From Flavobacteriales bacterium (GTDB lineage: Bacteria > Bacteroidota > Bacteroidia > Flavobacteriales > PHOS-HE28), in contig SSGN01000082.1 of the NCBI GenBank assembly GCA_008016945.1, positions 1-12,745 on the forward strand: 12,745 nt of DNA, in the 5' to 3' direction. Numbering within the stretch: position 1 is the first letter of the stretch; every line of letters begins with the position of its first letter. The notes under the pieces are model-generated. The model had not been told where the DNA came from. It ran no database searches and saw only the letters and a program-made list of their open reading frames with translations. Positions 1 to 12,745 of this stretch are shown in pieces. Position numbers and translations under genes: made by a program.

Positions 1-1
1 G

Positions 2-2164
2 CTACGTGCCGCGACCAGTGACACCGCAGGCCTTCTGCGCAACATCCCCGGCGTCAACCTGCAGGGAGCGGGAGGTGTCTCCAGCCTGCCCGTGGTCAAC
101 GGACTCGCTGGCGACCGCGTGCGCACCCAGGTCGACGGCATGGATCTGATCGCTTCCTGCCCCAACCACATGAACCCGCCGCTCTCGTACGTCGATCCAA
201 GCGCAGTCGAATCGCTCAAGGTCTACGCTGGAATATCGCCGGTCAGTGCCGGCGGCGACAGCATTGCCGGGACCATCGTCGCCAGGACGAAGGAACCGAA
301 ATTTGCAGCACCCGGCGAGGACTTGCTGTTTACCGGTGAGGCGGGCGCCTTCTATCGCAGCAACGGCAATGCTTATGGCGGCAACATCAACGCTACGCTG
401 GCCAATGAAAGCCTCAGCCTCACCTACACCGGTGCGACTGCGCAGGCCGACAACTACAAGGCTGGCGGAAATTTCAAGAACTACACGGCCACGGGCGTCC
501 CGGGACATGCGCTTGACCGCGATGAAGTCGGGTCAAGCGCGTACGAGACCCGTAACCACACGCTGGGCCTCGCCATGAAGGGGAGCAACCACCTCGTTGA
601 AGCGAAGCTCGGCTTTCAGGATCTGCCGTTCCAGAACTATCCGAACCAGCGCATGGACATGACTGAGAACCAGCAATGGCGCCTGAATCTGCGCCACCTC
701 GGGAAATACGACTGGGGATCGCTGGAAACCCGTGTCTATCACGAGAAGGTCGATCACAAGATGGACTTCGGTGATGACAAGCGCTTCTGGTATGGAGTCA
801 ACTCGGGGGGACCAGAAGGTGCCGACGGCCGCCTGACTCGAAACGGCTATCCATGCGCAATAGGGAGCAACTGCGCGGCCGGCATGCCGATGGAAACGGA
901 AAGCAAAAACAGCGGACTGACGATCAAGGCCGACATATCGCTAACGCAACAGGATCTGCTTCGTGTCGGTGGCGAATACCAGCACTATCGCCTTGATGAC
1001 TGGTGGCCCCCCTCGGGTAGCGGCATGTGGCCATATGACTTCATCAACATCAACGACGGCAAGCGCAACCGCACGGCGCTGTTCGGTGAATGGGAGGCTG
1101 CATACAGCGCGCAGTGGACGACCCTGATGGGCATTCGTTACGAGCACGTCAATACCGACGCCGGCAAGGTCCACGGCTACAACCTCGCCACGGCGCCGAC
1201 CAGCGGCTCGGGTGGCATGATGGGACAAACCACCGAGGCGGTTGCCTTCAACAACGCCGACCGCAGCAAGACCGACAACAACTGGAATTTCACGGCCCTC
1301 GCCCGTTACACGCCGTCGGAAACCAACGATGTCGAGTTCGGCATCGCGCGCAAGGTCCGCTCGCCGAATCTTTACGAACGCTACACCTGGTCGAGTTCGG
1401 GGATGATGGCCGGGATGAACAACTTCGTCGGCGACGGCAACGGCTACGTCGGCAACATCAACCTGAAACCTGAGAAGGCGCATACCGTCTCGGCAACGTT
1501 CAACCTGCATACCGCAGCACGCGACTGGGAATTCTCGGCGACGCCGTACTACACGTACGTTACTGACTACATCGACGCCGTACGGTGCCGCAACTCCACC
1601 TGCCTCGCCTCACTAGCCACCAACGCAACGACGACCAACAAGTTTGTCATCCTCCAGTACGCGAACCACGATGCGCGCCTCTACGGCCTGGACCTCGCTG
1701 GAAAGATGCCATTGGGAAAGACGGGCATCGGCGATTTCGGACTGCGTGGCCAGTTGAACTACACCAACGGCCACAACCGCGACACCGGCGACGACCTGTA
1801 CAACATCATGCCGCTCAACGCCAAGCTGACGCTGACGCACAAGACCGGCGGCTGGGACAGCGGCGTCGAGCTGGTGATGGTCAAGGCGAAGGACAACGTC
1901 TCCGAAGTGCGCAACGAGACCAAGACAGACGGCTATAGCCTCGTCAATCTCCGCTCGAGCTACACGCTGAAGAATGTCCGCTTCGACTTCGGTATCGAGA
2001 ACCTGTTCGACCGCAACTACGACCTGCCGCTCGGCGGCGCGTATATCGGCCAGGGTCGCACGATGTCGCTGAATCCGGTTGCAAGCGACGGCATGTTCGG
2101 CTGGGGAACGGCAGTACCGGGGATGGGCCGCTCGCTCTACGCCGGAGTGAACTACAAGTTCTGA
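2..2164 (+). CDS. oprC: TonB-dependent copper receptor, OprC/NosA type (5' partial)
   Basis: This is an outer-membrane beta-barrel receptor that imports copper using TonB energy. The frame is open from base 2, so the signal peptide, TonB box and start of the plug lie outside the window. The visible 720 residues begin inside the plug (NIPGVNLQG, then VNGLAGDRVRTQVDGMDL) and end in YKF, the aromatic terminus usual for barrel proteins. In the plug, CPNHM (158-172) matches the CxxxM half of the copper site described for Pseudomonas OprC. HKM (755-763) in the barrel matches the HxM half, about 199 residues later. Methionine-rich loops occur at 653-661, 884-892, 1217-1222 and 1403-1417. NosA, the Pseudomonas stutzeri relative, is linked to copper supply for nitrous-oxide reductase, which fits the nirS/nirC neighbours. 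The gene converges on the nine-gene minus-strand operon. The family call is firm; copper binding is inferred from the motifs. Confidence 0.92.
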   Translation, partial: LRAATSDTAGLLRNIPGVNLQGAGGVSSLPVVNGLAGDRVRTQVDGMDLIASCPNHMNPPLSYVDPSAVESLKVYAGISPVSAGGDSIAGTIVARTKEPKFAAPGEDLLFTGEAGAFYRSNGNAYGGNINATLANESLSLTYTGATAQADNYKAGGNFKNYTATGVPGHALDRDEVGSSAYETRNHTLGLAMKGSNHLVEAKLGFQDLPFQNYPNQRMDMTENQQWRLNLRHLGKYDWGSLETRVYHEKVDHKMDFGDDKRFWYGVNSGGPEGADGRLTRNGYPCAIGSNCAAGMPMETESKNSGLTIKADISLTQQDLLRVGGEYQHYRLDDWWPPSGSGMWPYDFININDGKRNRTALFGEWEAAYSAQWTTLMGIRYEHVNTDAGKVHGYNLATAPTSGSGGMMGQTTEAVAFNNADRSKTDNNWNFTALARYTPSETNDVEFGIARKVRSPNLYERYTWSSSGMMAGMNNFVGDGNGYVGNINLKPEKAHTVSATFNLHTAARDWEFSATPYYTYVTDYIDAVRCRNSTCLASLATNATTTNKFVILQYANHDARLYGLDLAGKMPLGKTGIGDFGLRGQLNYTNGHNRDTGDDLYNIMPLNAKLTLTHKTGGWDSGVELVMVKAKDNVSEVRNETKTDGYSLVNLRSSYTLKNVRFDFGIENLFDRNYDLPLGGAYIGQGRTMSLNPVASDGMFGWGTAVPGMGRSLYAGVNYKF

Positions 2165-2178
2165 ACTCCGAAAAGGAA

Positions 2179-2209
2179 GGCCCCGTCAACCTGCGGTGTC
2201 GACGGGGCC
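2179..2209. terminator. Bidirectional intrinsic terminator between converging genes
   Basis: A 9-bp perfect stem, GGCCCCGTC (2179-2187) pairing with GACGGGGCC (2201-2209), encloses a 13-base loop. It is followed on the plus strand by ATATTTT and, read on the minus strand, by TTCCTTTTC. It lies 15 bases after the copper-receptor stop and 38 bases after the stop of the last permease gene, so it can end transcription from both sides. Confidence 0.8.
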
Positions 2210-2246
2210 ATATTTTGCAGTTCCAGCCAGAATCAGTTCAGCGTTC

Positions 2247-3692
2247 TCAGCGTCCGAGACTGCGAACATAGTAACTTGCCAGCATCAGGGCGGCGAGCAG
2301 GAAAACCACTGCCGCCGTGGCAGGCAGGAGGCTCTCCGGTGCTTTTTCCCGAACCGAGAAACGTGGCAGGCGGTCGTAGTCGGCCCGCGTCAGGGGCAAG
2401 CTGCGCGCGGCACGCTCTGCAATGAAAAAATCCCGCCACTCGCGATGAAAGGTATCGAGTGCCGCCTCAAACTGCCGGTAGCGCGCCCTGCCATTTCCTG
2501 AAAGGTCGATCATTGCAGCTTCGGCCAGCATTGCCGGGGAGAGAAAGGCCAGTCGAGCAGCGAGCCGGGCCTGCTCGTCTACGCGCGCGTCGTGGCGGGC
2601 CAGCACGGCATCGGCACGCTCGGTGGCGATGGTCTGTACGGCAATGCGTTGCAGCATCCGCGTCCGCTCGTCTACCTTGCCCGCTGTTTTCGCCGCGGTC
2701 TCGCCATACTCGTCGCGGTAGCGCGCCTCTTCGGCGGCACGGTCACGCTCGGCGTCAATCGCGGCGCTGCGGGAAGCAAGTATGACTTCCGCACGCGGTG
2801 GCGCCGGATACGTCGCCTCGGAAAGCGCGGTCGAAAAGGCCGGAATCAGGAGCACGAAAACCAGCCAGGCACCGACCAGTGTCAGCGCATTGAGGGCCGA
2901 ATCGCGTCGCAAGGCATTGACGAAGGCTGCCAGCGCCAACCAGAACGATGCGTAAGCGACGACCAGAAGCGACAGCCATATCAGCGAGACGAGCGGAAGT
3001 GCGTGCGACGAATATGTTGCAAGCGCAATACCGGCATTGACGGCGACGAGTGTCACTCCGACAGGCAGCCCGCCGCGGACAAGCAGTTTACCGCCGAAGA
3101 CAGTCGCAAGCGAAGCCGGCGATGCGGCGTTGAGTGAAAACGTCCCCTGCTCGCGCTCTCCGGAGACAAGGTTGTAGGTGAGTGCCAGCAGACAGAGCGG
3201 CAGCACGAAGACGAGCACGAAAACAAGATCGAAGGTGCCGGCCGACAGATGCGCCGGATTGTTGATTTCTTCGGTAAAGAGAAAGCTGTCCTTGCTGCCT
3301 GCGCGCAGGCGCACCGCAGGCGGAAAGGCTTCGCCAGCACCAGCCGCCACCAGCGCCAGCGGGACGGGGGGCAAGGCAGCTGTCGGCCCGATACGGTTGC
3401 TGACGGCAAAGGCGTTGCGCGGATCCCGGTAAAAACGGTCTGGGGCGGCGATCCTGCCCGACTCGATCGCCTCGATCTGGGTGACCAGTTCGGCGCGCTG
3501 CTTCGCCTCGGCGTCCTGCATCACGGCAACCGCCCGTTCGCGTGCCTCAACCACGGCACGCCCGCTGACCAGCGCCTGAACGATAGCAGCAAGGAGCAAG
3601 GCTAGTACCAGCCAGACGGCGGGATCGCGCCGCATGAGTTTGAGCTCGAAGCACGCGGCAACCCGCAATTCGGAAAAGTGCTTCAGGCGCAT
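2247..3692 (-). CDS. ABC-2 type transporter permease B (DUF3526-like)
   Basis: This is a 481-residue inner-membrane permease, the last gene of the operon. A short cytoplasmic N-terminus (about 1-25) leads to TM1 (26-44) and then a first hydrophilic loop of about 110 residues. TM segments follow near 154-176, 205-226, 232-258 and 267-286. Next comes a long, mostly helical hydrophilic region (about 290-450) rich in Arg, Glu and Ala, and a final TM at 455-475. GEREQGT (178-184) after TM2 is the cytoplasmic coupling-helix signature of ABC-2 permeases. I place the start at the ATG at 3692, one base after the upstream permease stop (TGA-G-ATG), which implies translational coupling. The frame is open further upstream, but only by overlapping the preceding gene. 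The layout matches the DUF3526 class of ABC-2 permeases as I remember it. The substrate and direction of transport cannot be read from sequence. Confidence 0.85.
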   Translation of the reverse strand: MRLKHFSELRVAACFELKLMRRDPAVWLVLALLLAAIVQALVSGRAVVEARERAVAVMQDAEAKQRAELVTQIEAIESGRIAAPDRFYRDPRNAFAVSNRIGPTAALPPVPLALVAAGAGEAFPPAVRLRAGSKDSFLFTEEINNPAHLSAGTFDLVFVLVFVLPLCLLALTYNLVSGEREQGTFSLNAASPASLATVFGGKLLVRGGLPVGVTLVAVNAGIALATYSSHALPLVSLIWLSLLVVAYASFWLALAAFVNALRRDSALNALTLVGAWLVFVLLIPAFSTALSEATYPAPPRAEVILASRSAAIDAERDRAAEEARYRDEYGETAAKTAGKVDERTRMLQRIAVQTIATERADAVLARHDARVDEQARLAARLAFLSPAMLAEAAMIDLSGNGRARYRQFEAALDTFHREWRDFFIAERAARSLPLTRADYDRLPRFSVREKAPESLLPATAAVVFLLAALMLASYYVRSLGR

Positions 3693-3693
3693 C

Positions 3694-5208
3694 TCACACA
3701 GCCCTGAGGCGCGCCACGGAGCGCAGCGCGAACAGCGTACAGCCAAACGCCCAGAGGGCCAGCGCTGCCAGATTGCGGGCGTCGCCGGTGAGCACCTCGC
3801 CGATCGAAGGGTGCTGGTAGGCGAAAGAAGGAATGCTGGCGAACAGGGCAGGCGGCGCCTGATAGTCGGGACCGCCGTTTCTCGCGTTGCGGATGAGATC
3901 GTCACTCACGATCTCCTGGATCAGGCGGCGATGGCCTTCGGCTTGCGTCGTGAAATGATACTGATGCCGGCTGTCAGTACCCGCCAGCGCCATCGACACT
4001 GGCTGTACGGCAAGTGACGGCAGCAGGGCGCCGGGCAGGGCGCGGAGCGCGTCCTGACGATCGATGGCGGCCTGCAGCGCGGCATGATGCCGGTCGAAAA
4101 TGCGATAGCCGGCATGGTCGTCCTCGCGCAACGAGAGGCCACGGAAACTCACAGGCAGGTCTTCGATGCGGGATACGCCGTATTCGGCAAGCACTCGTGC
4201 CTTGAAGGCGACAAAGGCCGGATGCGATTCGTCGTGGCCGAACAGTTGCCGTTTGTCGGCGGCAATCGCGTCACGGAACTGCTGCGCGCTGGGCAGGGGA
4301 GCAAAGGAGCGAACCCAGTCGCTGCTCAGGCGGGGCGCGAGGAAGGTATTGGCCAGCCAGAACGCGAGCAGTATGACGAGCGCGGCGCGAGAACTTTTCG
4401 CCCGTGCCGAAACCGCCAGCGCCAAGGCGACGAAGCCGGCCAGATAGAGCGCATAAGCGACAGCGAGCGCGCCGAGACGGAGCACGCTCTGGCCGTGATC
4501 GGAGACGCCGCTGTGGTGTTCGAGGTCAAGGGTGTAGATGCCGGCGAACACGCCGATCGCGGCGGGGAGCAGGAGTATAAAGAGGGCTCCGGAAATCGCC
4601 ATGGCTTTGCCCGCGAGCAAATCGCGCGGCCGAACCCCCAACGCAAGAACCTGCCGCAAGGTGCCGCGCTCACGCTCGCCCGAGAACCCGGCAAAAGCCA
4701 GCAGGATGGCCAGCAAGGACAGCAATGCCTGCAGGATGAAGGCCAGCGACAAACCGTTGCCGGCGCGCCCCGGCAAGCCCGAATCGCGTGCGGGCCGAAA
4801 CTGCGCCTCGTTCTGTTTGTGCGCCTCCAGCCAGATTGCCGCGCCGACATGGGCATCGACGCCGGGGTCGGCCAGCGCAAGGACACCGACCGGCTTGAAC
4901 GCGTACTGCCCGAAATGCGCTGCTGCGTGGGGGTTCTTGGCGCCCTGCCCATCCCACAGCGAACGGTCGGCGAGCATCGCAGCAGAGCGCTCGCGATCGA
5001 GGCGCTGCGCCTGCGTGAAGCCTGCGATCAGCGCAGCCAATAACAGCAGCAGCGAAACGACGGCCAGCAGCCGCAGGCGGGAATCACGCACCAGTTCGCG
5101 CCACTCGCGCCGGGCGACGGTCAGCGCCGGCGACGCCGCCGGGCGTGCGAGCGTGGGGGCTGGAGCGACTTCCTCGCCGGTTTGCATGCTTGGCCGATGC
5201 AGGTCCAT
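3694..5208 (-). CDS. ABC-2 type transporter permease A (DUF3526-like)
   Basis: This is a 504-residue inner-membrane permease, paired with the next gene, to which it is similar in layout but not in detail. A Pro/Ala-rich cytoplasmic leader (1-30) precedes an amphipathic stretch ending in REWRELVRDSRLR (34-46) and TM1 (about 46-64). An extracytoplasmic domain of about 90 residues follows. TM segments lie near 155-175, 204-226, 245-267 and 275-292, then a large hydrophilic domain (about 293-478) and a last TM (480-496). GERERGT (177-183) is the ABC-2 coupling-helix signature, the counterpart of GEREQGT in permease B. The hydrophilic domain is rich in His (for example 325, 329, 365, 374, 375, 415, 418, 426), of unknown meaning. 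The start ATG lies 27 bases after the ATPase stop and has no strong ribosome binding site; M8 is an alternative start. It probably forms a heterodimer with permease B around the ATPase. Confidence 0.85.
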   Translation of the reverse strand: MDLHRPSMQTGEEVAPAPTLARPAASPALTVARREWRELVRDSRLRLLAVVSLLLLLAALIAGFTQAQRLDRERSAAMLADRSLWDGQGAKNPHAAAHFGQYAFKPVGVLALADPGVDAHVGAAIWLEAHKQNEAQFRPARDSGLPGRAGNGLSLAFILQALLSLLAILLAFAGFSGERERGTLRQVLALGVRPRDLLAGKAMAISGALFILLLPAAIGVFAGIYTLDLEHHSGVSDHGQSVLRLGALAVAYALYLAGFVALALAVSARAKSSRAALVILLAFWLANTFLAPRLSSDWVRSFAPLPSAQQFRDAIAADKRQLFGHDESHPAFVAFKARVLAEYGVSRIEDLPVSFRGLSLREDDHAGYRIFDRHHAALQAAIDRQDALRALPGALLPSLAVQPVSMALAGTDSRHQYHFTTQAEGHRRLIQEIVSDDLIRNARNGGPDYQAPPALFASIPSFAYQHPSIGEVLTGDARNLAALALWAFGCTLFALRSVARLRAV

Positions 5209-5235
5209 GACAGAGAGGTCTTCAATCGCCAGACG

Positions 5236-5973
5236 TCAAGCGGCCAGCCCGCCGCGGGAGACGTCGAGATAGGCACGCTCCAGACTCAGGTGATCGGTTG
5301 CCGCGGTATCAAAGGTCGCCGCCAGACGGCCGCGCTGCATGATGCCGACACGCGTGCCGCATTGCTGGGCCAGAAAAAGATCGTGCGTCACCATGAGCAC
5401 GGCCATGCCGCGTACGCTGAGCGTTCCGATGAGGCGGGCGAATTCGTTGGCCGCCAGCGGGTCGAGGCCGGAGGTGGGCTCGTCGAGCAGCAGCGCCCGC
5501 GCGTTGCGGGCCAGGGCGATTGCGATGCCGACTTTCTGCCGCATGCCTTTCGAATAGCCGGCGACACGGCGATCCATCGCTTCGGCCTGCAGCCCGGCCT
5601 CGGCGAGCCAGCCGCGCAACTCGCCATCGGAATGGCCGCGTCCGGCGGCAAGCGTCGCGAAATAATCGAGATTTTCGACGCCGGAAAGATTGCCGTAGAG
5701 CATCACCGTTTCGGGGATATAGGCGAGGTGCTGCCGGGCACGCTGCGGCTCGGCGGCGCTGTCGATGCCACAGACGAGCGCGGAACCCGCGCTCGGCGAG
5801 ATGAAATTCAGAAAGAGGTTGACCGTCGTCGTCTTGCCGGCACCGTTCGGCCCGAGCAGGCAGAAGACTTCACCGCCCGCCACCCCGAGATCAAGCGCAT
5901 CGAGGGCAACGGTATCGCCATAGCACTTGCTCAGGCTACGTGCTTCAAGCAGGGCGGATGTCATGGCGCTCAT
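5236..5973 (-). CDS. ABC transporter ATP-binding protein (NosF/CcmA-like family)
   Basis: This is a 245-residue cytoplasmic ATPase that would power the two permeases encoded immediately after it. All nucleotide-binding motifs are present: Walker A GPNGAGKT (41-48), a Q-loop position reading IPE with Glu88 as is common in the ABC-2 drug/NosF-type branch, signature YSKGMRQKV (140-148), Walker B ALLLDEP (160-166), D-loop SGLD (168-171) and switch His197 (THD). The start ATG at 5973 directly abuts the TGA stop of the propeller gene (TGAATG), so translation is probably coupled. ATG at residue 4 is an alternative start. Length and motif pattern match single-domain ATPases of ABC-2 systems rather than binding-protein-dependent importers. 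Standing between a secreted propeller gene and two permease genes, it recalls the order of nosD-nosF-nosY, but the substrate is unknown. Confidence 0.93.
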   Translation of the reverse strand: MSAMTSALLEARSLSKCYGDTVALDALDLGVAGGEVFCLLGPNGAGKTTTVNLFLNFISPSAGSALVCGIDSAAEPQRARQHLAYIPETVMLYGNLSGVENLDYFATLAAGRGHSDGELRGWLAEAGLQAEAMDRRVAGYSKGMRQKVGIAIALARNARALLLDEPTSGLDPLAANEFARLIGTLSVRGMAVLMVTHDLFLAQQCGTRVGIMQRGRLAATFDTAATDHLSLERAYLDVSRGGLAA

Positions 5974-7164
5974 TCAATTCAAGGGGAAGACACGCATGCC
6001 TTCGAGCTCGCTGCGCCAGAAAACAAAGAGTCGATCGCCCTTGGCCAGCAACCGCGGCTGGTCGTTCGCGCCGGCGCTGTGTGCGAGATCAACGGCGCGG
6101 AAGCTGGCCCCGCCGTCCTCGGATATCTCGCCTTTCAATTGCGTACGCTCACCATCGAACTGCTTCCAGACGATACCGACACGCGCTCCGATGACCCGGA
6201 GATCGGCGTGGGCAGCACCCGCCTCACCGATCTTGCGTTGGGCGCTGACGGCATCACTTGCCTTCTTCGGCAGACGACCGTAAAAGACGCGGCCCTCTCC
6301 GCCGCCCACCTGGTTGAACCAGACGGCATGGCGGTTGCCCGCCTCGTCGACGGCGAGCGAAGGTCCGTGATGGGGACAGCCGTCGATCTTCCAGCGGTCG
6401 AAAGTGGCACGAAGTACTTCCTCCGGCCGGCCATCCCGGCCGATGCGCGCAATCGCGTGATCCCGCTCGTTCGGCACGAAAACGTGGCGCCACAGGAACA
6501 GCGGAGAACCGTCGGAATCCAGTGCGGATGCAATTCGACAACATTCGCATGAATGATCGGCAACCTTCTGCTCGGGTTCGAAGCTTCGACCACCGTCGCG
6601 CGAAGTCGCTGCATAGATTGCCGCGCCCCGGTACGCCTTCTTGTCCCCCTTCTGCGCCTCCAGATCACGTTTGTCTATCCACGCCAGCACGACGCGACTG
6701 TCTGCTGCCACCACCATCGACTCAAAACGGTGGGTAATTTCATTGCGGTCACGATGAACCGTGATCGGCTCTGAGAAACTGGAACCATCGGTGGTCCGGG
6801 CCAGCCGGATTGCTCCAGAGAAGGGGCGACTCAGCGGTTGAGTCCAGGACACCAGTACAGCACCATCGGCGTCAAACGCCAGCTTCGGCCGATTTTCACC
6901 ATCGGCCGAGATGGCTTCTGGACGCGCGTTGACGACAGTCGGAGCTGACCAGGTGACGCCGTCGTCGCCACTTCGGTAGAGCATGAGATGCTCACCTTGC
7001 TTGGCGACAGCCAGCAGTTGTCCGTCAGGCGCGAATGCAGCGGCAGAACCGAGTTCGACCCTGGCTTTCTTCCCCATCGTGGGCATGGCCTCTGCAGCCT
7101 GGAGACGCTCCGGCCCGTAGGCAAGTGCAATCCCCAGCATGAGGCTCAGAATCACCTGCTTCAT
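5974..7164 (-). CDS. Secreted sialidase-like (Asp-box/BNR) beta-propeller with CxCC and CPHH motifs
   Basis: This is a 396-residue exported protein. The signal peptide is about residues 1-25 (MKQVILSLMLGIALAY, cleavage near AAEA). Asp-box repeats of the sialidase/BNR type recur: SGDDGVTWS (65-73), TTDGSSF (124-130), SRDGGRSF (188-195) and SEDGGASF (348-355), so a beta-propeller fold is expected. It is probably not a real sialidase. Its striking features are H204-S-C206-E-C208-C209 and C263-P-H265-H266, plus H227 and H236, a cluster that could bind a metal or a thiol partner. The start chosen is the ATG at 7164, which shares one base with the receptor stop (TGATG); the frame runs upstream to 7275 only inside the receptor gene. 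The gene lies between a TonB-dependent receptor and an ABC system, so a periplasmic carrier or assembly role is inferred. The fold is well supported and the function is unknown. Confidence 0.82.
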   Translation of the reverse strand: MKQVILSLMLGIALAYGPERLQAAEAMPTMGKKARVELGSAAAFAPDGQLLAVAKQGEHLMLYRSGDDGVTWSAPTVVNARPEAISADGENRPKLAFDADGAVLVSWTQPLSRPFSGAIRLARTTDGSSFSEPITVHRDRNEITHRFESMVVAADSRVVLAWIDKRDLEAQKGDKKAYRGAAIYAATSRDGGRSFEPEQKVADHSCECCRIASALDSDGSPLFLWRHVFVPNERDHAIARIGRDGRPEEVLRATFDRWKIDGCPHHGPSLAVDEAGNRHAVWFNQVGGGEGRVFYGRLPKKASDAVSAQRKIGEAGAAHADLRVIGARVGIVWKQFDGERTQLKGEISEDGGASFRAVDLAHSAGANDQPRLLAKGDRLFVFWRSELEGMRVFPLN

Positions 7165-9482
7165 CAGTATTTCAACCGCGCTTCGGCGAAGTACGTCCGC
7201 CCGGGGTAGGGATGGGGGCCGACATAAGCCTTCTTGTCGGTAAGATTGTCGATACCGACGGCCACACTTCCCCATTTGCCAAGGTTGTAGCCAAGTTTTG
7301 CATCCGCCATCGTGAATGAAGAAACACCGCCCGGCGTTGAACTGTGGACATCGGTGTTATCCAGACTGCCATACTGTTTCCCTTCGTGGCGAACGCCAAG
7401 CGAAGCCAGCCACGGCCCTGTCCGATAGCTGCCCAGCACCGAAGCACGAACGTGCGGCACACGTGGCCAATCCTTGCCTTCAGATGCGGGATTGGTGGGA
7501 TTGCTCAGCGTTTCTGAATGCGCGACGGCAATACTGCCTTGAAGATCAAACCCGAGTACGAAAATGTCGGTTCCCTGGTAAGCCGTTTCGATACCGCGCG
7601 TCCGAACATGCTTGACGTTCTGGACGGTCGTCACCGTCGTCGCTCCGACAAGCTGTGACTGCTGGAAAATTGCATTCTTGATGTCATCTTCAAACAGGGA
7701 AATGCGCAGACTGGAATTCCCCAATTCCCGAATGGCGGACAACTCCTTGGCATCATTCACCTCCGGTTTCATGTTCGGGTCATTGCTGACCAGCGAGGTT
7801 CCAGACCGCGCTCCCTGGAAAAGTTCAGACACGGTTGGAAAGCGAACGCCTCTCCCAACCGATGCGCGCGCCAGCCATTCGTCATTAACTGTATAGGCAA
7901 GCGACAGCTTAGGACTGGTTGCGGAATCCTTCCTGTCTGCGTAATTAACCTGTGGTTTAGCGGTAGCCTGAACATCGTACTGAGAGCCATCGTAGGCACG
8001 GAAACGCTCGTAGCGAACACCGAAAGTGGCCACCCAGTCGGGCATGAACCGCCAAGCATCCTGCCCGTAAAGGGCCTGAACCTGAGTTTTGCCGAAGTAA
8101 TTCTGGCGCTCGCTGGTCCTAGTGTCAGAATCTCGCCAGTAGCTCAGTGCATAAACGCGGTTTTCCAGCGTGTAGTTGTTCTGGTGGTAGCCGACTGTCA
8201 GCGCATGATTTTCACCGGCTCCCGGCGTATAGGTCCCCTGAAGCTCGAAGGTTCGCCACCCGGTTCCGTCACCCTTGGTATAGGTCCCCGTCGTCACACC
8301 GCTATAGGCAATAGGGTCAGAACGATCCGATGTCAGACTGGTGTTCTCGATGACCCGATAGCTGGAGAGCTGAATCGACGAATTCCAACCGGTGGCATTA
8401 CGTGTCCGCAGCCGCCCGCCGAGTTGCTCGTGTTCTTCATTGCCTCGTTGCGGCGCCATGAGGGGAATCGAATAGCGACTTCCGTTGATATTCACGTAGC
8501 CAGCGGTGGCACCTGTCGCTGGCGTTCCGACGCCACGCCACAGTTCGCTACCGGTCGCCGCATTTGTCAAAAGGGAGTGGTTATAGACTTTGTAGTCATT
8601 GGTCCAGTGAGCGTAGAGTGCATCGGCTTGGAGCGTCGGAGTGATATCGTAGGCAAGCTTGAATTTTGCTTGCTCCTGAACCCCTTTCTGCATATTGATC
8701 GCACCGACGATGACTCTCGGATTGCCATTCTGATCGCGGTCGGCAACGGCACCATTCGCTACTGGCAGTCCACCTACCGCCCCCCCGACAAAAGTAGCGG
8801 CCGCATACCCCATTGGCTGTGATTCATACGCCATCCGGTTGAGTGCCACGGCAAGCGACAGATCGCCCCAACGATTGCCCGCATAGGCGCTTTCCTGATC
8901 GTTGGTGTAGCCTTTCTTGTAGCCGTAGTTATCGTAGTTCTGATGGTAAACCTGCGCACTCCCAGAAGCCTCGAATTCCTTTGGGGTCCGCGTCGTAATT
9001 GCCACTGTAGTACCGATCGAGTTGCCAGGATAAATGGCGGAGAAAGGTCCATAGAGGACGTCGACGCGCGAAACTTCTTCAGGCGCAACGATGCTCCAGC
9101 GCGGCGCGTCGAATCGCCCGAGGAAGTTGGAAATCAGATAGCCGTCGACATAGGCCAAGCCCCGTGCAGGCTGAGTCGTACCGAACGAGCGACCACCCAG
9201 GTTCGCATTCCGATCGCCGATGAAACGCTTGCGGACGGTTGTATTCGGTGCATATCGCAACGCATCTTCCGTATTCAGGAAGCTTTGCGTCTCCAGCGCT
9301 TCTCGGGTAGTTGAAAACGTTGAGGCCGGAAGGTTGGGATCGAGCGGCGCCCGCGCACCCGACACCGATACAGGCGCCAGTTCGCGCTCCGTTGCAACGC
9401 CTTGCGCGAGCGCATGCGTGGAGAATGCTCCAAGCAACAGTGCTGACAGGCGCCTCATCGGCAGTTTGTGCGTCGAAAACAT
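7164..9482 (-). CDS. TonB-dependent outer-membrane receptor, ligand unknown
   Basis: This is a 772-residue outer-membrane receptor. The signal peptide is 1-26 (ending THALA before QG). A probable TonB box, ELAPVSVSG, lies at 34-42. The plug runs to about residue 180 and includes RVDVLYGPFSAIYPGNS, a typical plug C-terminal motif. The barrel fills the rest and ends in ARLKY, with an aromatic last residue. The start is the ATG at 9482 because AGGAG (9490-9494) sits 7 bases upstream; an in-frame ATG at 9533 has no such support. The mature protein contains no cysteine, and no CxxxM copper motif was seen. I also see no FRAP/NPNL haem-receptor motif, so the ligand could be a siderophore, a copper-chelating metallophore or something else. 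It follows tonB-exbB-exbD in the same operon and so has its own energising complex. Its base composition looks less GC-rich than that of the ABC genes. Confidence 0.9.
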   Translation of the reverse strand: MFSTHKLPMRRLSALLLGAFSTHALAQGVATERELAPVSVSGARAPLDPNLPASTFSTTREALETQSFLNTEDALRYAPNTTVRKRFIGDRNANLGGRSFGTTQPARGLAYVDGYLISNFLGRFDAPRWSIVAPEEVSRVDVLYGPFSAIYPGNSIGTTVAITTRTPKEFEASGSAQVYHQNYDNYGYKKGYTNDQESAYAGNRWGDLSLAVALNRMAYESQPMGYAAATFVGGAVGGLPVANGAVADRDQNGNPRVIVGAINMQKGVQEQAKFKLAYDITPTLQADALYAHWTNDYKVYNHSLLTNAATGSELWRGVGTPATGATAGYVNINGSRYSIPLMAPQRGNEEHEQLGGRLRTRNATGWNSSIQLSSYRVIENTSLTSDRSDPIAYSGVTTGTYTKGDGTGWRTFELQGTYTPGAGENHALTVGYHQNNYTLENRVYALSYWRDSDTRTSERQNYFGKTQVQALYGQDAWRFMPDWVATFGVRYERFRAYDGSQYDVQATAKPQVNYADRKDSATSPKLSLAYTVNDEWLARASVGRGVRFPTVSELFQGARSGTSLVSNDPNMKPEVNDAKELSAIRELGNSSLRISLFEDDIKNAIFQQSQLVGATTVTTVQNVKHVRTRGIETAYQGTDIFVLGFDLQGSIAVAHSETLSNPTNPASEGKDWPRVPHVRASVLGSYRTGPWLASLGVRHEGKQYGSLDNTDVHSSTPGGVSSFTMADAKLGYNLGKWGSVAVGIDNLTDKKAYVGPHPYPGRTYFAEARLKY

Positions 9483-9489
9483 TCTCTTT

Positions 9490-9494
9490 CTCCT
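9490..9494 (-). promoter_or_regulatory. Ribosome binding site of the second TonB-dependent receptor
   Basis: AGGAG on the minus strand is spaced 7 bases from the ATG at 9482. It decides the start in favour of residue MFSTHK rather than the upstream in-frame ATGs at 9533 and 9521. Confidence 0.85.
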
Positions 9495-9546
9495 GATTTT
9501 ATTGCTTTGGCCTGTCGTCATGACTGTGACCATGTTTCGTAAGTAG

Positions 9547-9969
9547 CTATTTGGGTTCGGTAACGAAAGCGATCTTGGCCAAACCTGCCTTCTGCGCCGC
9601 CGCCAGAACCTCGGTCACGCGCTCGTAACGTGTGCCGCGGTCAGCGCGCAGGTGAAGCTCGGGTTCGCTGCCAGCTGCCGCGATCGACTGGAAGCGCGAT
9701 TCCAGGCCATGGATCTCGTTGCGGTCGAGACGCTCGCCGTCGACGAATACGCCCCCTTCGCCATCGATCGCGACGGAAACCACGCGCGGCTTATCGTCAA
9801 GCCGTGTCGAATCGACCTTGGGCAGATCGACCGCTACTGCCTGATGAAAGAGCGGCGCAGTGATGATGAAGATGACCAGCAGCACGAGCATCACGTCCAC
9901 CAGCGGCGTGGTGTTGATCTCGGCCATCGGTTGGGTGACGCCGCCGCTGTCGAAGGATCCGAAGGACAT
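9547..9969 (-). CDS. exbD: Biopolymer transport protein ExbD
   Basis: This is a 140-residue inner-membrane protein with one N-terminal TM (about 24-42) and a periplasmic domain, and it is part of the proton-driven ExbB-ExbD-TonB motor. The family motif AEINTTPLVDVMLVLLVIF (16-34) contains the essential membrane aspartate at position 25. The periplasmic part ends in the usual pattern LRADRGTRYERVTEVLAAAQKAGLAKIAFVTEP. Length is normal for the family. The ribosome binding site AAGGAG (9975-9980) overlaps the exbB TAA stop and lies 5 bases before the ATG, so the gene is transcribed and probably translated together with exbB. A 64-base spacer separates it from the receptor gene, the largest gap within the operon. 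Confidence 0.95.
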   Translation of the reverse strand: MSFGSFDSGGVTQPMAEINTTPLVDVMLVLLVIFIITAPLFHQAVAVDLPKVDSTRLDDKPRVVSVAIDGEGGVFVDGERLDRNEIHGLESRFQSIAAAGSEPELHLRADRGTRYERVTEVLAAAQKAGLAKIAFVTEPK

Positions 9970-9978
9970 GGCAGCTCC

Positions 9979-10713
9979 TTAGGCCGATTTCGCGGAACGT
10001 GCGGCGGCGAGATCGACCAGCTTGTCGCCGGGACGACCGCGCAGGCCGGTGGTGAGGTAGGCGTGCAGGTCGTGTGCGAAGCCGTCAAGGCGCGCCAGCG
10101 TCAGGCGGTTGGCGCGGGTGAAGGCGTTGTAGGCGAGCACCGCGGGAATGGCCACGAAGAGGCCGGCGGCGGTCATGATGAGCGCTTCGCCGACCGGGCC
10201 GGCGACCTTGTCGAGTACGACCTGGGTCGCACCGGAAAGCCCGACGAGGGCATGGTAGATGCCCCACACGGTGCCAAAGAGGCCGATGAAAGGTGCCGTG
10301 GAGCCGACCGAGGCGAGGAAGGTCAAGCCGGACTCGATGCGCGCCTGAGATTCGACGATCTGGCTACGCACAGCACGCGTGACGAACTCGCTGGCAGAGA
10401 CGCCGGCACCGATGCCGCGAGCGGCGTGCTGGCGGTGCAGTTCGGCGGCGTTGACGCCAGCGATCGCCAGTCCGCTGAGAATGCCTGTCTTGTCCTCATT
10501 ACGAACCGCTTCGATCGCCTCGGGCAGCGATTCGGCCCCCCAGAAGGCGTTCTGCGCACGCAGGTGACAACGGCGGGCCTGCCAGACGCCGTGGATCTTG
10601 CCGGCCATGACATACCAGCTGGCAAGCGACAGGCCGAGCAGCAGGATAGCCACGAAGTGCGTCACGGCATCGCCTTGCGACCAGAATTGCGCCAATCCCA
10701 TTTCCATTCTCAT
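9979..10713 (-). CDS. exbB: Biopolymer transport protein ExbB (MotA/TolQ/ExbB family)
   Basis: This is a 244-residue inner-membrane protein that forms the pentameric proton channel of the TonB energising complex. Three TM segments are visible: about 19-37, 130-155 and 176-199, with the family's large cytoplasmic loop between the first two. The conserved block SVGSTAPFIGLFGTVWGI (135-152) precedes TM2/TM3, and GPVGEALIMTAAGLFVAIPAV (172-192) carries the expected Glu and Thr of the channel. The ATG at 10713 is backed by TTCCTT on the plus strand (AAGGAA read on the gene strand, 10719-10724), 5 bases upstream. ATGs at residues 3 and 5 are weaker alternatives. It lies 13 bases after the tonB stop and directly before exbD. 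TolQ is excluded because tonB and a receptor gene flank it. Confidence 0.95.
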   Translation of the reverse strand: MRMEMGLAQFWSQGDAVTHFVAILLLGLSLASWYVMAGKIHGVWQARRCHLRAQNAFWGAESLPEAIEAVRNEDKTGILSGLAIAGVNAAELHRQHAARGIGAGVSASEFVTRAVRSQIVESQARIESGLTFLASVGSTAPFIGLFGTVWGIYHALVGLSGATQVVLDKVAGPVGEALIMTAAGLFVAIPAVLAYNAFTRANRLTLARLDGFAHDLHAYLTTGLRGRPGDKLVDLAAARSAKSA

Positions 10714-10726
10714 GTTCGTTCCTTGC

Positions 10727-11392
10727 TTAGCTGTTCAATGTGAAATTCAGCGGCACCAGCACCGAGGCTTCGATCGCCTGATCGCCCTGCCGCGCCGGCA
10801 CGAAACGCCAGCGCTCAACGGCAGCCCGGCCGGCCTCGTCGAGGCGCGGGAAACCGCTCGATTTGCTGACTTCGACGGAGAGTGGCAGGCCCTGGCTGCT
10901 GACGCGGACGCGCAGCACGAGCTTGCCCTCCTCGCCGAGCCGACGGGACATCGGCGGGTAGACGGGCTTTGGGTTCTGCAGGTAGTCGGCATCGAAACGG
11001 GCTGCGACGATCGGTACCGGTGCAGCGACAGGGGCTTGCACCAGCGGAGCGGCGACAGGCTCGGGCTGTGGCGCCACGACAAAGCTGGCCTGAGCATCAG
11101 CCTTCTTTGCGACCGCCATGATCGGCGGCGGCGTCAGTGCCTTTTTCGGCGCCGGCTGCGGCGGCAAGGGCTTGGGCGGTTCGAGCTTCGGCGGCGCCGG
11201 CGGCGAGAGTTCGAGCATGCGCACGGCAAGCGCCTTCACTTGTGGCGGCACGGCAGGGCGGGCGGCAGCATAAATGATCAGCAGCAGGAAGAGGGCATGC
11301 GCTGCCAGCACGAGCAGCGCGAAGGAGCCGCTCCGCCACGGGGCGGTGACGACGGTGTTGCCCGGCAGCGCATAATAAGCCGCATCACTCAC
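10727..11392 (-). CDS. tonB: TonB-family energy-transducing protein
   Basis: This is a 221-residue protein with a cytoplasmic N-terminus (1-22), a single TM anchor (about 23-44, with His32 inside it), a Pro/Ala/Lys-rich periplasmic spanner (46-128, with PPAPPKLEPPKPLPP) and a C-terminal TonB domain (139-220). That domain has NPKPVYPPMSRR, LRVRVSSQG and GRAAVERWRFVPAR in the order expected for the family. I choose a GTG start at 11392: it overlaps the TlpA-like gene stop as GTGA and has GAAGGAG (11401-11407) 8 bases upstream. An in-frame TTG at 11413 extends the frame but lies before that ribosome binding site. It is probably dedicated to the receptor of this operon, and it could also serve the neighbouring copper receptor. 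Confidence 0.92.
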   Translation of the reverse strand: MSDAAYYALPGNTVVTAPWRSGSFALLVLAAHALFLLLIIYAAARPAVPPQVKALAVRMLELSPPAPPKLEPPKPLPPQPAPKKALTPPPIMAVAKKADAQASFVVAPQPEPVAAPLVQAPVAAPVPIVAARFDADYLQNPKPVYPPMSRRLGEEGKLVLRVRVSSQGLPLSVEVSKSSGFPRLDEAGRAAVERWRFVPARQGDQAIEASVLVPLNFTLNS

Positions 11393-11871
11393 CGGGCATT
11401 CTCCTTCACCCAACGCTCCAGCCGCGCGGCGGGAATCAGCCCGGAGACGGCCTCGATGCGATGATTCCTGTCGAACAGATAGGTGCGTGGCAACTCACCG
11501 TACCACTTGGGGTCGATTTCGAAACGCAAGCGTTCCGGCGCCGCCTCATCAGAGAAAATCCATTGCTGCGTGGACCGCAGCCCGAACCCGGCCGCAATTT
11601 CAGCCGCACGCGGCGCTTCATCCTGGGAATCAGTGGCTACCAGCACCACATCCAGCCCCGGATAGCGCCGTTTCAGCGCACCGAGCGCCTTCAATTCTGC
11701 CGGGCAGTGGGCGCAGCCGATCGACCAGAAGGCCAGGACAAAAGATCTACCCTGCCGTTCAGCCACGATCCGTTCCATCGTGCCAGGAGCGAAACTGCGG
11801 AGATGACCGGCAGAGGCATGCGCCGCACCGGCAAGAATCAGCAGCAGACAGGAAAGATAGCGGAACAGCAT
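11389..11871 (-). CDS. Secreted TlpA-like thioredoxin-fold protein
   Basis: This is a 160-residue exported protein with a thioredoxin fold, the first gene of the operon. The signal peptide is about 1-22 (MLFRYLSCLLLILAGAAHA). The active site is C53-A-H-C56 in the context FWSIGCAHCPAELKAL, and Pro128 in GELPRTYLFD is the cis-proline expected next to it. Such proteins keep periplasmic cysteines reduced; TlpA of Bradyrhizobium does this for copper-loading steps of oxidase assembly. The CECC/CPHH propeller encoded downstream is a natural candidate partner, but that is inference. The start is uncertain: a GTG at 11877 in the same frame adds two residues, and neither has a strong ribosome binding site. 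The stop overlaps the tonB GTG. An FNR-type palindrome lies about 105 bases upstream. Confidence 0.88.
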   Translation of the reverse strand: MLFRYLSCLLLILAGAAHASAGHLRSFAPGTMERIVAERQGRSFVLAFWSIGCAHCPAELKALGALKRRYPGLDVVLVATDSQDEAPRAAEIAAGFGLRSTQQWIFSDEAAPERLRFEIDPKWYGELPRTYLFDRNHRIEAVSGLIPAARLERWVKENAR

Positions 11872-11891
11872 CGACACGCCCGGAAAGGTTC

Positions 11892-11907
11892 AATTCGGGC
11901 TCGAATT
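11892..11907. promoter_or_regulatory. Inverted repeat in the leader of the tlpA-like/tonB operon
   Basis: AATTCG (11892-11897) and CGAATT (11902-11907) are perfect inverted hexamers with a 4-base spacer, about 21 bases upstream of the first start codon. It could be an operator or a weak mRNA hairpin. No regulator family is assigned. Confidence 0.35.
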
Positions 11908-11932
11908 CTATGTGTTCGGATCGCTTAATCCG

Positions 11933-11949
11933 TGCGACATATCGTCGCA
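11933..11949. promoter_or_regulatory. Inverted repeat TGCGAC-N5-GTCGCA in the operon control region
   Basis: Perfect 6-bp arms (11933-11938 and 11944-11949) flank ATATC. Its centre is about 41 bases downstream, in gene orientation, of the FNR-type box centre, which is where a class II FNR-type promoter would place its transcription start. A repressor operator is possible; no regulator family is recognised. Confidence 0.35.
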
Positions 11950-11975
11950 GAACACGCCGTTCGCGACCTTATCGC

Positions 11976-11989
11976 TTGACCTTGGTCAA
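11976..11989. promoter_or_regulatory. FNR/ANR/DNR-type binding palindrome upstream of the nine-gene operon
   Basis: TTGACCTTGGTCAA consists of TTGAC-N4-GTCAA, an intact dyad of the CRP/FNR superfamily (FNR consensus TTGAT-N4-ATCAA; nitric-oxide-responsive DNR/NNR sites commonly have the C/G variant). It lies between the nirC terminator and the TlpA-like gene, on the correct side to control the operon. No convincing -10 box was found at the exact class II distance, so the promoter start is not assigned. Oxygen- or NO-dependent control is inferred. Confidence 0.7.
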
Positions 11990-12020
11990 ATCCGGGTGAA
12001 ATAGTGGCCGGCACAAGAAA

Positions 12021-12037
12021 GCCCGCACAAGGCGGGC
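12021..12037 (-). terminator. Intrinsic terminator downstream of nirC
   Basis: A GCCCGC/GCGGGC stem with a 5-base loop is followed in the minus direction by TTTCTTG, about 45 bases after the nirC stop. The T-run is imperfect. A second hairpin at 12050-12070 sits just before it. Confidence 0.6.
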
Positions 12038-12049
12038 CGGGATGAAGCG

Positions 12050-12070
12050 CGCGAGTCAGCGTAACTCGCG
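12050..12070 (-). other. Hairpin just downstream of nirC
   Basis: CGCGAGT (12050-12056) pairs with ACTCGCG (12064-12070) around a 7-base loop, 12 bases after the nirC stop. It has no T-run, so it may stabilise the 3' end of the mRNA or act together with the adjacent terminator. Confidence 0.5.
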
Positions 12071-12081
12071 GTGCCTTCTGC

Positions 12082-12402
12082 TTATTGTTCCGGGAAGCCC
12101 TCGAGCAGGCGATCGACAATCCACTCGGCTTCAGGCTCGGAAAGAAAACGATGCCAGGGCGGCATCGGGGTGCCGGGGCGACCGCCGTAGATCGTCGCGA
12201 CCAGCGCTTCCTTCGGCACGTCGCGTTCCTTGAGCGCCTTGGCCGTAAGCGCAGGGCCAAGCCCGCCATTGAGGGTCATGCCATGGCAGGAACCACAGTC
12301 CTGGCGCACCATGCGCACCAGCTCGCGCTGCCGCTCGGGGGGCGGTTCCGATGCGGCCAGTGCAGGCGCGGAGACAAGAATGAGCAGAGAGAAGTAACGC
12401 AT
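12082..12402 (-). CDS. nirC: c-type cytochrome NirC (cytochrome c55X)
   Basis: This is a 106-residue periplasmic monohaem cytochrome c. The signal peptide is about 1-16 (MRYFSLLILVSAPALA). The haem-binding site CGSCH follows in VRQDCGSCHGMTLNGGLGP, and the axial methionine is in GGRPGTPMPPW. This pattern and the small size are those of NirC, which donates electrons to, or helps mature, cytochrome cd1 nitrite reductase. NirM/c551 is less likely because its motif spacing differs. The gene follows nirS on the same strand, as in known nir clusters. However, a strong terminator lies between them, and no nirF or other d1-haem genes follow. The ATG at 12402 has only a weak ribosome binding site (GTGGATGT). 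A frame starting at 12412 is an out-of-frame shadow. Confidence 0.87.
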   Translation of the reverse strand: MRYFSLLILVSAPALAASEPPPERQRELVRMVRQDCGSCHGMTLNGGLGPALTAKALKERDVPKEALVATIYGGRPGTPMPPWHRFLSEPEAEWIVDRLLEGFPEQ

Positions 12403-12489
12403 ACATCCACATTTGATGATCGTGCGGCCTGCCGGTGCGAAGTCCCGAACCCTGCGGCCATGAAAGTGCGAAGTTTACCCGAGCAGGCG

Positions 12490-12517
12490 AAAAAAAACCG
12501 GGGGCCGAAGCCCCCGG
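12490..12517 (-). terminator. Strong intrinsic terminator of nirS with UUCG loop
   Basis: On the minus strand, CCGGGGGC-TTCG-GCCCCCGG (12517-12498) forms an 8-bp stem capped by the very stable C(UUCG)G tetraloop. It is followed by eight Ts (12497-12490). It stands 36 bases after the nirS stop and before nirC. Confidence 0.92.
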
Positions 12518-12553
12518 TTTTAGCTTGCGTTGAACGCTAGAACAATCAGCCGA

Positions 12554-12745
<192 letters not shown>

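Follow-up and report, generated by a model that had tools for sequence, protein, structure and literature searches.

A 12,745-nucleotide stretch of a Flavobacteriales genome (contig SSGN01000082.1 of assembly GCA_008016945.1, positions 1 to 12,745), here called the window, contains a nine-gene operon that would serve the acquisition of copper. Its core, formed by a TonB-dependent receptor, a beta-propeller protein and a TlpA-like thioredoxin together with a TonB-ExbB-ExbD motor, is probably a copper-acquisition system, and the ABC ATPase and two ABC-2 permeases encoded at the end of the operon appear to be a recruited partner module resembling ZnuGHI; based on the sequence comparisons described below, the probability of this reading was judged to be about two in three. 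The core apparently represents a widespread, hitherto undescribed route of copper import across the outer membrane, since no description of a receptor-propeller-thioredoxin system was found in the literature searched by title and abstract opening, a search that most subscription papers lie outside. Copper limitation makes denitrifiers release N2O, and little is known of how copper crosses the outer membrane and arrives at nitrous oxide reductase and other enzymes of the periplasm.

The nine genes lie on the minus strand in the order tlpA-like, tonB, exbB, exbD, receptor, propeller, ABC ATPase, permease 1 and permease 2, and their successive junctions, measured from the listed starts, are a 4-base overlap, 13, 9 and 64 bases, a 1-base overlap, and 0, 27 and 1 base(s). 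Thus, the arrangement on one strand, the gaps of at most 64 bases and the gene order noticed in the first-pass annotation of this DNA were all borne out by the gene coordinates. The first gene (11389..11877) encodes the TlpA-like thioredoxin, which has one CxxC motif at residues 55–58 and a signal sequence read by eye, and scores slightly below the cut-off of the Pfam AhpC-TSA model (24.0 vs. 26). TonB (10727..11392), whose GTG start overlaps the tlpA stop, exceeds the cut-offs of PF03544 and TIGR01352, and is followed by ExbB (9979..10713, PF01618), ExbD (9547..9969, PF02472) and the receptor of 772 amino acids (7164..9482, PF00593 and PF07715). The start of the propeller gene (5974..7164) overlaps the receptor stop, and the start codon of the ATPase gene (5236..5973, PF00005) abuts the propeller stop. 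The ATPase was classed as ZnuG-like from its place in the ABC-2 triad; permease 1 (3694..5208) and permease 2 (2247..3692), both matching PF12679 and PF12040 and containing DUF3526, were classed as ZnuH/I-like. The window had no match in Rfam.

Conservation of the core in related loci

Related loci, partly from metagenome-assembled genomes, were collected by searching for the propeller. A genome scan yielded 21 loci, of which the weak L019–L021 were left out of the counts; four loci duplicating others were likewise omitted. In the family sample, consisting of 249 genomes from the family of the Dechloromonas locus L003, the propeller was present in 73 genomes at 76 places; 66 of these places (10 were left out) and 12 further loci of the genome scan made up the 78 loci counted below. 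The class sample of 369 genomes, which includes the L003 reference genome, contained the propeller in 21, and the 12 loci taken from its 20 places besides G003 (L153–L164) were kept apart from the 78. Neighbouring genes were counted by six-frame profile searches within 5 kb of the propeller and compared with the far flanks. The search profiles derive from genes of these very loci, whereas the test for CxxC and RAPP motifs described below is independent of the profiles.

A receptor was found near the propeller in 75 of the 78 loci and TlpA in 64, and five further TlpA genes were located at 5.0–5.5 kb, at the front of operons having the same six-gene order as the window (L004, L007, L067, L070 and L075). 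TonB, ExbB and ExbD were detected in 32, 30 and 32 loci, respectively, and every match to TlpA, TonB, ExbB or ExbD within 5 kb was on the strand of the propeller. The CxxC motif was present in all 36 TlpA-like proteins of the relatives that are encoded by separate open reading frames (ORFs).

In four of the 12 class-sample loci (L155, L156, L162 and L163), the receptor-propeller operon adjoins a two-gene pair, sensor kinase and response regulator, of RegB/RegA-like appearance by eye; the pair of L162 was assigned by Pfam to HATPase and to Response_reg with a Fis-type HTH_8 domain. The receptor-propeller-TlpA set was also seen on two contigs labelled as belonging to a Klebsiella pneumoniae metagenome-assembled genome (L013 and L014), a label that looks doubtful.

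Copper-related genes near the core

The metal handled by the core was taken to be copper because CruR-type ORFs, PCuAC, OprC-type receptors and nosZ occur nearby. DUF2946 ORFs were found in 21 of the 78 loci (23 proteins), on the strand of the propeller, at a density of 31 hits per Mb near the propeller versus 1.6 in the far flanks (binomial p 8e-6). All 23 proteins contain a CxxC motif followed, after 44–47 residues, by RAPP (22 proteins) or RGPP (one protein). In the Bordetella work, CxxC and RAPP with 45 intervening residues are given as the hallmarks of CruR, a copper-responsive upstream ORF (uORF), and are reported to mediate repression by copper (PMC9426467). In two loci with a CruR-type ORF in front (L093 and L095), the receptors are 62–64% identical to that of the window. 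A second CruR-type ORF was seen before another receptor gene of the same locus in L093 (8057-8557, the receptor being OprC-type) and in L101 (12364-12801), which suggests that OprC genes may also be under CruR-type control.

PCuAC was encoded near the propeller in 18 of the 78 loci (24 hits per Mb vs. 6 in the far flanks, p 0.007), 17 of the 18 hits being on the propeller's strand. Across 18 genomes, only 20 PCuAC genes were found. The spacing H-x10-M-x21-H-x-M, which we take to be the PCuAC motif, was invariant in the PCuAC proteins of these loci. This chaperone has been tied to the assembly of haem-copper oxidases (PMC12914433). An OprC-type receptor was found near the propeller in 13 of the 78 loci (p 0.009).

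The four-cysteine propeller

The propeller of the window (396 residues, with a signal sequence read by eye) has exactly four cysteines, C206, C208, C209 and C263, which were invariant in all 44 sequences of one alignment and all 39 of another, the window's protein being included in both. In the 44-sequence alignment, the Pro after the fourth cysteine was also invariant and the following His was conserved in at least 90% of the sequences. The C-x-C-C and C-P-H segments plausibly make up a candidate soft-metal site. The AF2 model (mean pLDDT 89.1) has a propeller fold of the lectin/sialidase type, and a PDB search with the propeller sequence gave nothing useful. Relatives of the protein are annotated as exo-alpha-sialidase, and PF13088 or PF02012 is assigned to many of them; the window's propeller scored 22.8 bits against PF13088, whose cut-off is 31.4. 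The reading of the protein as a GH33 sialidase/BNR or otherwise sugar-related protein was rejected on account of this sub-cut-off score, the invariant cysteines and the copper genes in the neighbourhood. If the copper reading is true, a protein present in 73 of the 249 family genomes under the database name of a sialidase becomes a testable step of copper handling, and that name would have to be corrected.

In Steroidobacter-type loci, a single ORF of about 520–550 residues encodes both propeller and TlpA-like thioredoxin; the fusion is clear in L010, L012 and L015, and the domain report is ambiguous in L011. On Roseobacter-group plasmids (L022 and L023), a propeller homologue was seen near genes of petA, a response regulator, an L,D-transpeptidase, a cytochrome c and a multicopper oxidase.

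The ABC-2 triad

Homologues of permease 1 were found by protein search in 2 of 18 genomes (E 1e-5), 3 of 249 (E 1e-10) and 8 of 369 (E 1e-20). The permease homologues form 15 genome clusters, all with a Pfam-verified TonB receptor nearby, although in two of them (L146 and L149) an unrelated ORF stands in between. An ATPase gene was seen in 14 clusters, the exception being L149, whose permease 1 has an internal stop. The propeller was found in none of the 15 clusters, and four of these genomes (G010, G011, G110 and G213) bear it at another place; conversely, none of the 78 propeller loci had a DUF3526 permease within 5 kb. Since the core and the triad are each found with TonB receptors and stand apart elsewhere, the window joins two modules, and the triad looks like a separate add-on outside the conserved core. 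The first-pass annotation had paired the propeller with the ABC proteins as one unit and had suggested following both together with tonB-exbBD across genomes; the pairing is not supported as a conserved one, and of the suggested co-occurrence, that of the propeller with tonB-exbBD stood (30–32 of the 78 loci).

Twelve plasmid records matched permease 1, and five of them were opened. A receptor adjoins the triad on the Eleftheria, Blastomonas and Spirosoma plasmids, no receptor was found within 8 kb of the triad on the Methylocystis plasmid, and the Variovorax record carries no annotation. The literature search gave no papers on DUF3526 in combination with a TonB-dependent receptor. In genome G010, the triad lies near PCuAC. 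Relatives of permease 1 at about 55–62% were seen in Methylocystis and Methylosinus as well as in planctomycetes, for example Singulisphaera and Paludisphaera. Methylocystis and Methylosinus are methanotrophs with a high copper demand.

The abutting propeller and ATPase genes might suggest that the propeller and the ABC proteins constitute one NosDFY-like machine, which would process copper or sulfur for metallocentre assembly. Like NosDFY, the window has an ABC ATPase and a permease of PF12679, presumably the family of NosY, near denitrification genes, and in a PDB search with the ATPase, NosF was the best of the non-eukaryotic chains (E 9e-39), level with the mycobacterial exporter Rv1218c (1.6e-38). 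However, eukaryotic ABCA chains outscored NosF. A PDB search with permease 1 gave nothing useful. Unlike NosDFY, the window has two different DUF3526 permeases, a TonB receptor and, in the place of the NosD-type beta-helix, a beta-propeller, so an assignment to NosDFY itself was rejected. Considering also that triad and propeller are separated in the other loci, where the permeases keep company with receptors, such a joint machine is unlikely.

Link to denitrification

The first-pass annotation proposed that the system handles a metal or metallophore for denitrification enzymes. A nosZ match, defined as E 1e-20 to TIGR04244, was found in 149 of the 249 family genomes, and the model cut-off was passed in 75; the weaker matches are probably clade II enzymes and partial genes. 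The nosZ gene tracked with the propeller, being present in 59 of the 73 propeller genomes versus 90 of the remaining 176 (odds ratio 4.0 in a Fisher test, p 1e-5, uncorrected for kinship and completeness). Within 5 kb of the propeller, nosZ was found in three of the 78 loci (L002, L070 and L071), its centre lying 1.8–2.4 kb downstream of that of the propeller, and in L133 the distance was 6.6 kb. In L002 (11232-11783, no Pfam match), L070 and L071, a gene of a small protein was seen on the opposite strand between the propeller and nosZ.

An FNR/Dnr-type box, TTGACCTTGGTCAA (11976..11989), lies upstream of the operon, about 100 bases 5′ of its first gene, and is a perfect palindrome (TTGAC-CTTG-GTCAA). 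It is the only match to TTGAYNNNNRTCAA in the window, where 0.01 would be expected, and only 3 of 200 shuffled sequences contained one, which confirmed the FNR-type box placed before the operon by the first-pass annotation. The locus L007 of Candidatus Accumulibacter has the same order as the window, that is, nirS, a small ORF that matched nothing in Pfam, nirC, tlpA, tonB, exbB, exbD, receptor and propeller, followed by OprC, PCuAC and SCO genes on the other strand. An FNR-type box, TTGATCTACGTCAA, is located there at 1618 between nirC and tlpA, in the same gap as in the window. When start regions were scanned over the 78 loci, five FNR-type boxes were found versus 0.77 expected, one of them inside a gene and the box of L007 being excluded.

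The service is not restricted to denitrification. Since 14 of the 73 propeller genomes had no nosZ match (some of them possibly for want of completeness) and the fetched flank was free of nosZ in most of the loci that have PCuAC or DUF2946, copper is likely supplied to oxidases too, and the best reading is that cuproenzymes beyond the denitrification ones are served. Of the original proposal, therefore, the metal and the link to denitrification stand, the metal being narrowed to copper for the core, and the exclusive service of denitrification enzymes does not, as also indicated by PCuAC in the neighbourhood of the core.

The operon receptor and comparison with named systems

The operon receptor contains no cysteine. 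Its His426 and His433 are invariant across the window's protein and its 27 nearest propeller-linked relatives; among 41 database relatives, these two were conserved in at least 90%, and His351 and His757 were invariant. The model of the receptor (pLDDT 85.5) gave only the general receptor fold in structure comparison.

Among the nearest named systems is the copper TonB transporter operon CruR-CrtA-CrpH of Bordetella pertussis (PMC12914433, PMC9426467 and PMC13038864). The two are alike in that a TonB receptor operon stands behind a DUF2946 uORF (in 21 of the 78 relatives of the window), PCuAC and TonB-ExbBD accompany it in some cases, the receptor has no conserved cysteine, and copper supply to respiratory enzymes is proposed. 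Unlike there, the receptor of the window is not a CrtA. With the single sequence, the CrtA structure 9RVQ was missed at 1e-3, and in the profile search it was the last of the 47 matches listed (E 5.2e-7); the comparison was made with the CrtA entries 9RVQ and 9RVX and did not rerun the published CrtA sequence network. CrtA was not among the 50 best structure matches listed for the receptor model, which speaks neither way. The receptor of the CrtA system is followed by a PepSY_TM protein, which the authors of that work speculate to be a copper reductase (PMC13038864). No PepSY_TM gene lies 3′ of the receptor in the window, where the propeller and the ABC ATPase are found instead, so a CrtA operon type was rejected; the place of the PepSY_TM protein is taken by the four-cysteine propeller and the TlpA-like thioredoxin. 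If true, this would represent a thiol-based alternative to the suggested copper reductase.

The pqqU (yncD)-yncE pair of E. coli has a similar receptor-propeller neighbourhood, and in the profile PDB search PqqU was among the nearest solved relatives of the operon receptor; however, its genes are divergent, and neither a TonB motor nor a thioredoxin lies in the 12 kb shown.

Proposed mechanism and its alternatives

Powered by the TonB-ExbB-ExbD motor, the receptor would import chelated copper to the periplasm, where the propeller and the TlpA-like protein are predicted to reside. The propeller may take over the copper, probably as Cu(I), on its Cys-x-Cys-Cys and Cys-Pro-His site. Its thiols would be kept reduced by the TlpA-like protein, which may also supply electrons for the reduction of Cu(II) to Cu(I); a thiol-reducing role is supported by TlpA adjoining the propeller in most loci and sharing one ORF with it in Steroidobacter-type loci. 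Copper would then pass to cuproenzymes, in this organism most likely to nitrous oxide reductase and haem-copper oxidases, and the FNR-type box would switch the operon on with denitrification or when oxygen is low. For the ABC-2 triad, the most likely function is transport of the metal or of the leftover chelator across the inner membrane, be it inward or outward. The more specific proposal that this is a distinct pathway, leading from a TonB receptor through a thioredoxin-reduced tetra-cysteine propeller to NosZ and haem-copper oxidases, onto which a ZnuGHI-type ABC pair has been fused to give a nine-gene machine spanning both membranes under denitrification control, is a tentative one.

Several observations weigh against copper acquisition. 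The density of PCuAC hits near the propeller exceeds that of the far flanks only about fourfold (24 vs. 6 per Mb), and SCO genes were commoner far from the propeller than near it (5 hits vs. 1). A six-frame scan for CxxC and RAPP found no CruR-type ORF in the window itself. Among family models, the operon receptor matched those of haem or siderophore receptors best, in each case below the cut-off, and its sole match in the single-sequence PDB search at E 1e-3 was a haem receptor. The receptors beside the propeller are diverse: 34 of the 68 compared align to that of the window (over more than 400 residues, 29–71% identity), and the other 34 do not. The triad and the propeller occur in one cluster in the window only, and the nine-gene form rests on this single window. 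Finally, the nosZ excess is uncorrected for kinship and completeness, and 14 of the 73 propeller genomes lack a nosZ match.

A role in envelope copper defence or sensing instead of uptake would agree with the surroundings of five distant plasmid homologues of the propeller, hand-picked from 64 records, which lie near genes of CopC, CopD, a multicopper oxidase or a heavy-metal ATPase; all five keep the four cysteines, and one also adjoins amoCAB. In the closer relatives, however, the propeller is coupled to a TonB receptor and often to a motor of its own, which is an importing arrangement, and in 21 of the 78 loci CruR-type ORFs lie close to it; in Bordetella, abundant copper leads to repression of the operon through this type of ORF (PMC9426467). 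Defence or sensing is therefore quite unlikely.

That the whole operon takes up zinc, or transition metals in general, was considered because of the resemblance of the triad to ZnuGHI and the occurrence of such triads in zinc clusters controlled by Zur. In Caulobacter crescentus, the ABC-2 ATPase and two permeases of ZnuGHI are encoded beside the receptor ZnuK and are repressed by Zur (PMC4176598). The window likewise combines an ATPase and two ABC-2 permeases with an adjacent TonB receptor, and of the 14 control genomes Caulobacter alone gave DUF3526 matches, which would fit ZnuH and ZnuI as DUF3526 proteins. In addition, Fur-family genes lie beside the permeases at L127 and L131, accompanied at L127 by the gene of a ZIP transporter. 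On the other hand, the triad of the window is joined to a copper-type propeller operon with an FNR-type box, and a search of the window for Zur-like boxes (GTTATNNNATAAC with at most two mismatches, our reading of the sites in PMC4176598) gave none, so Zur control was rejected, although this is weak evidence as only 0.93 matches were expected by chance. The core is tied to CruR-type ORFs, PCuAC and OprC where it occurs without the triad, and the triad of the Eleftheria plasmid is itself preceded by a receptor gene and a gene annotated as DUF2946 (at L132, DUF2946 was only below cut-off). Zinc uptake by the whole operon is thus improbable.

That the operon takes up haem, a ferric siderophore or a sugar and that its propeller is a glycosidase or lectin is highly improbable: the haem-receptor matches mentioned above, PhuR and PqqU as the best PDB matches of the receptor, the label of iron-complex receptor given by one source to the receptor's relatives and the lectin/sialidase fold of the propeller would favour it, and the sub-cut-off sialidase score, the propeller having no cysteines but the invariant four and the enrichment of copper genes nearby speak against it (no systematic search for sugar or siderophore genes was made).

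Genes and sites flanking the operon

Upstream of the operon, on the same strand, lie the genes of a NirC-type cytochrome c (12082..12402, PF13442) and the C-terminal end of nirS, the cytochrome cd1 nitrite reductase (12554..12745, PF02239, E 2.8e-17), as the first-pass annotation had read them. The copper receptor which it recognized at the other end (2..2164, plus strand, N-terminus beyond the window edge) was found to be OprC/NosA-type by its PDB matches and motifs. Every PDB match at E 1e-3 was OprC, and the CxxxM of the plug (C53, M57) aligns with that of OprC; together with the HxM motif (H252, M254), these residues were each invariant in all 16 aligned OprC-type members, comprising the window's protein and 15 from the relatives' loci. 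The copper site of OprC is made up of these two motifs, CxxxM from the plug and HxM from the barrel (PMC8610252). The N-terminally truncated protein scored 129.8 bits against the NCBIfam copper-receptor model TIGR01778, whose cut-off is 472.45, and two haem-receptor models outscored TIGR01778, likewise below their own cut-offs. The OprC-type gene is convergent to the operon and outside it, and differs from the operon's own receptor, which is free of cysteine.

Terminators had been placed on both sides of the operon. The number of terminator-like sites in the region was not above that of shuffled sequences (10 vs. 10.2); terminator-like hairpins are nevertheless present on the minus strand in both flanking gaps, one with a 12-pair stem between the convergent oprC and the operon (2179..2209) and the other between nirC and the operon (12020..12038).

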